Below are positions 61,139 to 63,042 of a DNA stretch of 64,000 nucleotides, one piece after another. Below the pieces are notes generated by a model. The model had not been told where the DNA came from, made no database searches, and saw only the letters and a program-made list of their open reading frames with translations. The translations under genes were made by a program, and so were the position numbers. Source of the stretch: Candidatus Electrothrix scaldis (GTDB lineage Bacteria; Desulfobacterota; Desulfobulbia; Desulfobulbales; Desulfobulbaceae); NCBI GenBank assembly GCA_033584155.1, contig CP138355.1, forward strand, positions 1,506,501 to 1,570,500, read 5' to 3'. Within the stretch, counting starts at the first letter, position 1; each line of letters opens with the position of its first letter.

Positions 61139-62230
61139 CTACTCCTTGTCGCCAAGGCAGATGCCGATGGAGCGTGCAGTCAGTATTTTGTCACTCTTCA
61201 GGTCTACCTGCTTTCGGCAACGGATAGCGTCTTCCAAGAGCACCGCCGACATAGTGGGGGGAGTCCAGGCAACCATTCGATCAAATAAGCCTTCTGCAGC
61301 CATTCGCACAGCAGCAGCTCCGAAGCGGAGGGCCAGCAGACGATCAAAGGTGGTGGGCGAGCCCCCTCTTTGGAGATGTCCAAGTACCAGTGATCGGGTA
61401 TCTTTACCGATCCTCTTCCTGATTTCTTCCGCAACCCATTCTCCAACACCACCGAGGACGACTTCCTCGCGACCGGCTTCTCCTTTACCTCGATTTCTAA
61501 CCTCTCCGCCTTCTTCCTTGGCTCCTTCCGCAACCACAACAATGGAATAATGTTTGCCGTGGAGTTCGTTTTCGGTGATCTTGGCGCAGACTGCATCCAT
61601 ATCAAAGGGAATCTCTGGGAGTAGGATAACATCTGCGCCTCCTGAAATTCCTGAATACAGAGCTATCCACCCAGAATCTCGCCCCATTACCTCCACGACC
61701 ATGACTCTGTCATGGGATTTAGCCGTTGAATGGAGTTTATCCAGGGCCTCTGTTGCGGTGGAAACCGCTGTATCAAAACCAAAGGTCCGGTCGGTGGCTT
61801 CCAGGTCATTATCAATAGTCTTAGGGACTCCGACAACCGGCATGCCCAACTCAGCAAAGCGATGCGCTATTTCCAGACTCCCGTCGCCACCAACAGCAAT
61901 ATGGCAGCCAAAGCCCATGCGCTTAAAGCCGTCCATAACTTTGCTCGATACGTCTACTAACATTTCTTCGTCGGCAAAGTTTTTTACCGGCATGGAAAAG
62001 GGGTTTCCCTTGTTTGTTGTGCCGAGGATTGTACCACCAGTGGGTGTTATTCCCTCAACATCGGCGGGCATCAGGCGAACAAGTTCATCTCTATCCAGAA
62101 ACCCCATATAGCCGTGCCGACTCCCATAGACCTCCCAGCCGAGTTTCGTTGCGGATTTCACAATCGCAAAAATCACCGCGTTCAGGCCGGGTGCGTCTCC
62201 GCCGCCTGTGGAAATCACTATTTTGTTCAT
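61139..62230 (-). CDS. pfkA: 6-phosphofructokinase (mixed G/K active-site type)
   Basis: Phosphorylates fructose 6-phosphate in glycolysis. The 363-residue product opens KIVISTGGGDAPGLNAVI. The nucleotide-site motif is GGDGSLEIA (Gly at the position of E. coli Gly104, as in ATP enzymes), while the catalytic motif is PKTIDNDLEATD with Lys at the position of Gly124, as in PPi enzymes. MGRDSGWIALYSGISGGAD and HLQRGGSPTTFDR complete the site. This G/K mix is seen in group III enzymes, which mostly use ATP. A charged insertion (KEEGGEVRNRGKGEAGREE) lies near residue 240. First gene of a three-gene operon. Confidence 0.93.
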   Translation of the reverse strand: MNKIVISTGGGDAPGLNAVIFAIVKSATKLGWEVYGSRHGYMGFLDRDELVRLMPADVEGITPTGGTILGTTNKGNPFSMPVKNFADEEMLVDVSSKVMDGFKRMGFGCHIAVGGDGSLEIAHRFAELGMPVVGVPKTIDNDLEATDRTFGFDTAVSTATEALDKLHSTAKSHDRVMVVEVMGRDSGWIALYSGISGGADVILLPEIPFDMDAVCAKITENELHGKHYSIVVVAEGAKEEGGEVRNRGKGEAGREEVVLGGVGEWVAEEIRKRIGKDTRSLVLGHLQRGGSPTTFDRLLALRFGAAAVRMAAEGLFDRMVAWTPPTMSAVLLEDAIRCRKQVDLKSDKILTARSIGICLGDKE

Positions 62231-62467: not shown

Positions 62468-62627
62468 AAGAAGTAATCTGAACGTTTTATTTTTCTGTTT
62501 TTCAGATACGGTCTTTTGTTGAAGTTAGAATAAGGCTAACTAAACAGATTTTTTGGAAGAAAAGAGGAATGAAGAAGCTCAAGCTTGCTCTGTAAAGTTT
62601 GATAATTTTAACAACCTGGAGGTTATT

Positions 62628-62966
62628 ATGCTGGAAGTAACAAGTTCGGCAGTCGAGAATCTCAAGACATATCTCGCCGACAATAATATTGAATCCGCGA
62701 TCCGCATCTCTTTGATGCAGGGTGGCTGAGCAGGCCCCTCTTTGGGATTGGCTCTGGATGAGCCAAAAGAAAATGATCAGACGTTTGATGAAGGTGGTGT
62801 TCAGTTCTTGGTTGAGCAGGGATTGCTCAAAACCTGCGGTGCTATTAAAGTAGACTTCCTCGAAGCTGGCTACCGTTCAGGTTTTTCCATTACCTCTGAA
62901 AAACCTGTAGGTGGTGGCGGCGGTTGTAGTTCTGGTTCTTGTAGTTCTGGTAGCTGCGGCGGCTGA
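62628..62966 (+). CDS. HesB/IscA-like selenoprotein (TGA = selenocysteine at codon 34)
   Basis: 112 residues when the TGA at 62727-62729 is read as selenocysteine. The ATG at 62628 has GGAGG 7 bp upstream. The N-terminal part (MLEVTSSAVENLKTYLADNN, then RISLMQGG-U-AGPSLGLALD) and the C-terminal part (GGVQFLVEQGLLKTCGAIKV, DFLEAGYRSGF) align as one A-type iron-sulfur carrier, with Sec in place of the first conserved Cys. The protein ends with a Gly/Ser/Cys tail (CSSGSCSSGSCGG). HesB-like selenoproteins are known from Desulfobacterota. Role: iron-sulfur or persulfide handling with a redox-active Sec; inferred. Standard gene callers split or truncate it at the TGA. Confidence 0.88.
62748..62766 (+). 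promoter_or_regulatory. SECIS-like hairpin after the UGA codon
   Basis: TTGGCTC (62748-62754), loop TGGAT, GAGCCAA (62760-62766): a perfect 7-bp stem starting 18 nt after the TGA, with GG in the loop. Position and loop agree with bacterial SECIS elements bound by SelB. Confidence 0.65.
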
Positions 62967-62993
62967 TATCACAGGGTATATTTCTCCGTAAAG

Positions 62994-63030
62994 CCTCTGT
63001 CCCGACGCTGTTGTCGGGGGAGAGGTTTTT
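62994..63030 (+). terminator. Terminator after the selenoprotein gene
   Basis: CCTCT-GT-CCCGAC (62994-63006) pairs with GTCGGG-GG-AGAGG (63013-63025), followed by six T. It also lies at the 3' end of the convergent carboxypeptidase gene. Confidence 0.85.
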
Positions 63031-63042
63031 TATTTTTCCCCT

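Follow-up and report, generated by a model that had tools for sequence, protein, structure and literature searches.

The window analyzed here is a 64,000-nucleotide stretch of the genome of Candidatus Electrothrix scaldis. Close to its 3′ end lies an open reading frame (62628-62966) that begins with ATG, ends with TGA (62964-62966), and is interrupted solely by one further in-frame TGA. The features of the locus are as follows.

61139-62230, minus strand: phosphofructokinase (PFK_mixed), the divergent neighbor, conserved across the order and not part of the selenoprotein
62618-62622, plus strand: Shine-Dalgarno-like GGAGG, 5 nt upstream of the ATG, read off the sequence
62628-62966, plus strand: gene of a predicted HesB-like (IscA_HesB_Se) selenoprotein of 112 aa, matching profile NF038090
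62727-62729, plus strand: in-frame TGA, predicted Sec34, which falls on the first ligand Cys in the alignment with IscA
62748-62766, plus strand: putative bacterial SECIS hairpin with a 7-bp stem and the loop UGGAU (62755-62759), from folding and comparison with relatives
62925-62963, plus strand: C-terminal Cys-rich tail CSSGSCSSGSCGG with Cys100, Cys105 and Cys110, from the sequence; pLDDT below 50 in the model
62990-63031, plus strand: predicted intrinsic terminator downstream of the selenoprotein gene, a long hairpin followed by a T run (folding z of -5.83)

The closest named relative is the protein of Candidatus Electrothrix aarhusensis, with 94% identity over residues 1-94, which makes a cable bacterium, or a near relative of one, the probable host. 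The gene order is shared as well, with phosphofructokinase, the divergent selenoprotein gene, and a D-Ala-D-Ala carboxypeptidase. The divergent pairing of phosphofructokinase and selenoprotein was also kept in most of the Desulfobulbales-type loci that were fetched. No isc or suf genes were seen next to the selenoprotein gene.

The original prediction of a HesB-like selenoprotein at this site is supported. In the profile searches, the protein scored 143.9 bits against NF038090 (IscA_HesB_Se; curated cut-off of 85 bits), with residues 1-102 covering positions 1-101 of the 101-position profile. The general Pfam Fe-S_biosyn model was also matched above its cut-off (30.4 vs 26.3 bits). The protein stayed below the equivalog cut-offs of IscA, SufA and ErpA (40.8, 38.2 and 30.7 vs 150.6, 136.2 and 117 bits, respectively). 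It also stayed below the curated cut-off of TIGR01911 (HesB_rel_seleno; 37.8 vs 66.35 bits), the model of the HesB-like family, of which NF038090 is the fitting subfamily model. The UxGP motif, the HesB fold, a Sec residue at the ligand site, and the deltaproteobacterial occurrence are common to the window protein and that family. The NF038090 members that were read resemble it in the G-U-x-G-P motif and the short Cys-rich tail. In distant members, the tail is a minimal CGSCSC, whereas that of the window protein, CSSGSCSSGSC, is longer; we see no feature here that defines a new type.

The residues around the TGA read MQGG-Sec-AGPSLGLALDEPK. In the alignment with IscA, the TGA falls at the first metal-ligand Cys of the IscA/HesB fold, as had been proposed. 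An AlphaFold2 model, computed with Cys placed at position 34, had a mean pLDDT of 81.5 and matched the E. coli IscA and SufA structures (1r94, 1s98, 2d2a), which points to a predicted IscA-like fold with the first ligand position in common. The window protein differs from the E. coli proteins in that Sec would replace the first ligand Cys, the next residues are GP where theirs are GM, and the tail is CSSGSCSSGSC rather than of the CGC type. The tail was unordered and flexible in the model. Its Cys residues, which had been described as extra thiols, are indeed present, but they are not extra for the family: three to four tail Cys occur in 48/48 Sec forms, which makes the Cys-rich tail a family trait.

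From homology only, we infer that Sec34 and the tail thiols may bind or carry iron or an Fe-S cluster. A Se-dependent redox enzyme is the main alternative to such a carrier. In that case, Sec34 and the tail Cys would form a selenol-thiol pair that cycles through a selenenylsulfide. The constant presence of three to four Cys on a flexible tail would suit this chemistry, and redox functions have been argued for most uncharacterised selenoproteins (PMC13188914). On the other hand, Fe-S and iron carriers have this fold and a ligand residue at this very position, and we consider a redox enzyme possible, if somewhat unlikely.

The comparison with relatives drew on named genome contigs and 297 genomes of the same phylum. 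It comprised 48 distinct Sec-form sequences, the window gene included, and nine Cys forms; the Sec forms were picked by homology and a GU/C-x-GP motif filter that leaves sequences departing from the motif uncounted, and they are related to one another and hence not independent events. TGA was found at the position of Sec34 in 48/48 Sec-type relatives, and the reading frame was conserved on either side of it. The proposed alignment with Cys-containing homologs placed Cys at the TGA position in paralogs and homologs. Among the 150 NF038090 matches over the cut-off that were listed in the phylum, 117 had one in-frame TGA, one had two, and 32 had none, according to flags transcribed by hand. Sec and Cys forms were both present in 23/125 genomes. 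In 14 of these 23 (14/125 overall), they formed tandem pairs on one strand within ~ 1 kb. The tandem spacing was usually 400-700 bp, with one case of ~ 1 kb (loci including L038, L041, L047, L053, L066 and L069).

A perfect 7-bp hairpin with a GG loop, starting 18 nt after the TGA, had been predicted. The hairpin is present at 62748-62766 (TTGGCTC-TGGAT-GAGCCAA), its first base lies 18 nt past the TGA, and the GG is contained in a loop of five bases, UGGAU. In single-sequence folding, its stability was not significant (z of -1.33), so the case for a SECIS rests on comparison. An Rfam search of the selenoprotein locus returned no credible match. One hairpin or another with a stem of 7 bp or more arose in ~ 30% of synonymous recodings of the window gene, whereas the five loop-proximal pairs survived in only 4% of random synonymous recodings. 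These five pairs were kept in 48/48 Sec forms but in 0/9 Cys forms, which upholds the earlier view that the SECIS is recognisable. Most of the nine Cys forms encode a near-identical peptide at the hairpin site, and yet the pairs are absent. The loop was UGGAU or UGGAC in 47/48 Sec forms. The codons of the hairpin were near-frozen across the Sec forms (Ala GCT in 46/46, Leu CTG in 48/48, Glu GAG in 46/48), and both exceptions, with Glu GAA, carry the matching C-to-T change on the opposite strand of the stem, a compensatory replacement of C-G by U-A. Codons beyond the hairpin mostly varied more freely. Conserved pairs together with constrained synonymous codons are what marks a bacterial SECIS, and the comparison shows the UGA and the hairpin to be under selection in Sec forms only.

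These results also bear on the possibility that the TGA is a true stop. The gene would then be a decayed Cys form, or the TGA would stem from a sequencing error, and the frame beyond it would be a remnant. The non-significant folding and the presence of a Cys-form paralog in the genome would be compatible with this scenario. However, the downstream half is conserved, TGA recurs in 48 distinct sequences, the hairpin is constrained at the codon level, and the genome holds the full Sec machinery; we regard a true stop as very improbable. Decoding of the TGA by near-cognate readthrough or reassignment (e.g. to Trp), for which no supporting point was found, is scarcely credible given that the selenoprotein gene itself terminates in TGA, that a tRNA-Sec with the anticodon TCA is present, and that the position is Cys in the paralogs.

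The machinery was identified in a search of the 5.09 Mb one-contig genome, with scores of 627.9 bits for selA, 370.7 for selB, and 343.8 for selD; the tRNA-Sec gene scored 75.3 bits, and ARAGORN assigned it the anticodon TCA. The original prediction had held that the organism decodes selenocysteine and had named the absence of selABC from the complete genome as evidence to the contrary; the genes looked for are all there. The locus and its genome combine the features by which a bacterial selenoprotein is recognized, i.e. an in-frame UGA with Cys in homologs, a Sec-only SECIS, and selA, selB, selC and selD. We strongly infer that the TGA of residue 34 is decoded as selenocysteine. In the same genome, SelD has its own in-frame TGA, read as TCG-U-AAKIG, and a formate dehydrogenase match over the cut-off also contains one. 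Formate-dehydrogenase-like matches with an in-frame TGA were located at G000:C1:260803-261744 and 3031454-3033463 of the window's genome; both are likely further selenoproteins.

Following established selenocysteine biology, SelB with Sec-tRNA-Sec would bind the UGGAU-loop hairpin just past the UGA, and SelB-dependent insertion would place Sec at position 34. The selenolate of Sec34 might then bind iron or an Fe-S cluster, or perform redox chemistry, in which the mobile Cys-rich tail would probably take part; the setting would be an anaerobic, Se-using metabolism of the sulfate-reducer type. Taken as a whole, it is almost certain that the gene at 62628-62966 is functional and monocistronic and that it encodes a HesB-like selenoprotein of predicted A-type Fe-S carrier fold, with Sec34 inserted through SelB and the UGGAU hairpin.

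The Sec and Cys copies, found in tandem in several Desulfobacterota, are separate in the window's genome. The Cys-form paralog lies at G000:C1:3641622-3641933 on the minus strand. Its direct downstream neighbors on that strand are a double-cubane-cluster reductase, which scores 493 bits on NF040772, and an acyl-CoA dehydratase activase. The three genes span L078:3450-5934, which corresponds to G000:C1:3639449-3641933. A link of this paralog to cluster delivery is possible. The linkage is not general for the family, as judged from coordinates compared by eye in 297 genomes of the phylum: no genome but the window's own showed a family member adjacent to the reductase, and in G208 the genes are ~ 4 kb apart. 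A literature search for double-cubane together with HesB yielded no paper. That the Sec protein and the Cys paralog form a mixed Sec/Cys delivery pair for special clusters seems to us a doubtful proposition. A third, more divergent HesB-like protein is encoded at L027:1501-1908 (G000:C1:3841184-3841591); selB lies ~ 7 kb away and selD ~ 14 kb. This protein carries additional Cys, its C-terminal tail is long, and its score of 75.8 bits is under the NF038090 cut-off.

HesB was among the selenoproteins listed in 2005 (PMC1242214), and the HesB-like family was tabulated in 2006 (PMC1794560) and again in 2026, as TIGR01911 with the motif UxGP (PMC13188914). In Methanococcus maripaludis, a HesB-like selenoprotein was reported by means of mutagenesis and 75Se labelling, and a disruption mutant still fixes nitrogen (PMC11097638). 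Since the family has long been known (PMC1242214, PMC1794560, NF038090), the window selenoprotein is not a new find; the gene is one more member of the HesB-like selenoprotein family, and the family picture is unchanged. The literature that we searched made no mention of cable bacteria together with selenoproteins. The present analysis provides a clean comparative set (48 Sec and nine Cys forms) for this selenoprotein family, and it gives good support to selenocysteine decoding in a genome of the cable-bacterium type.
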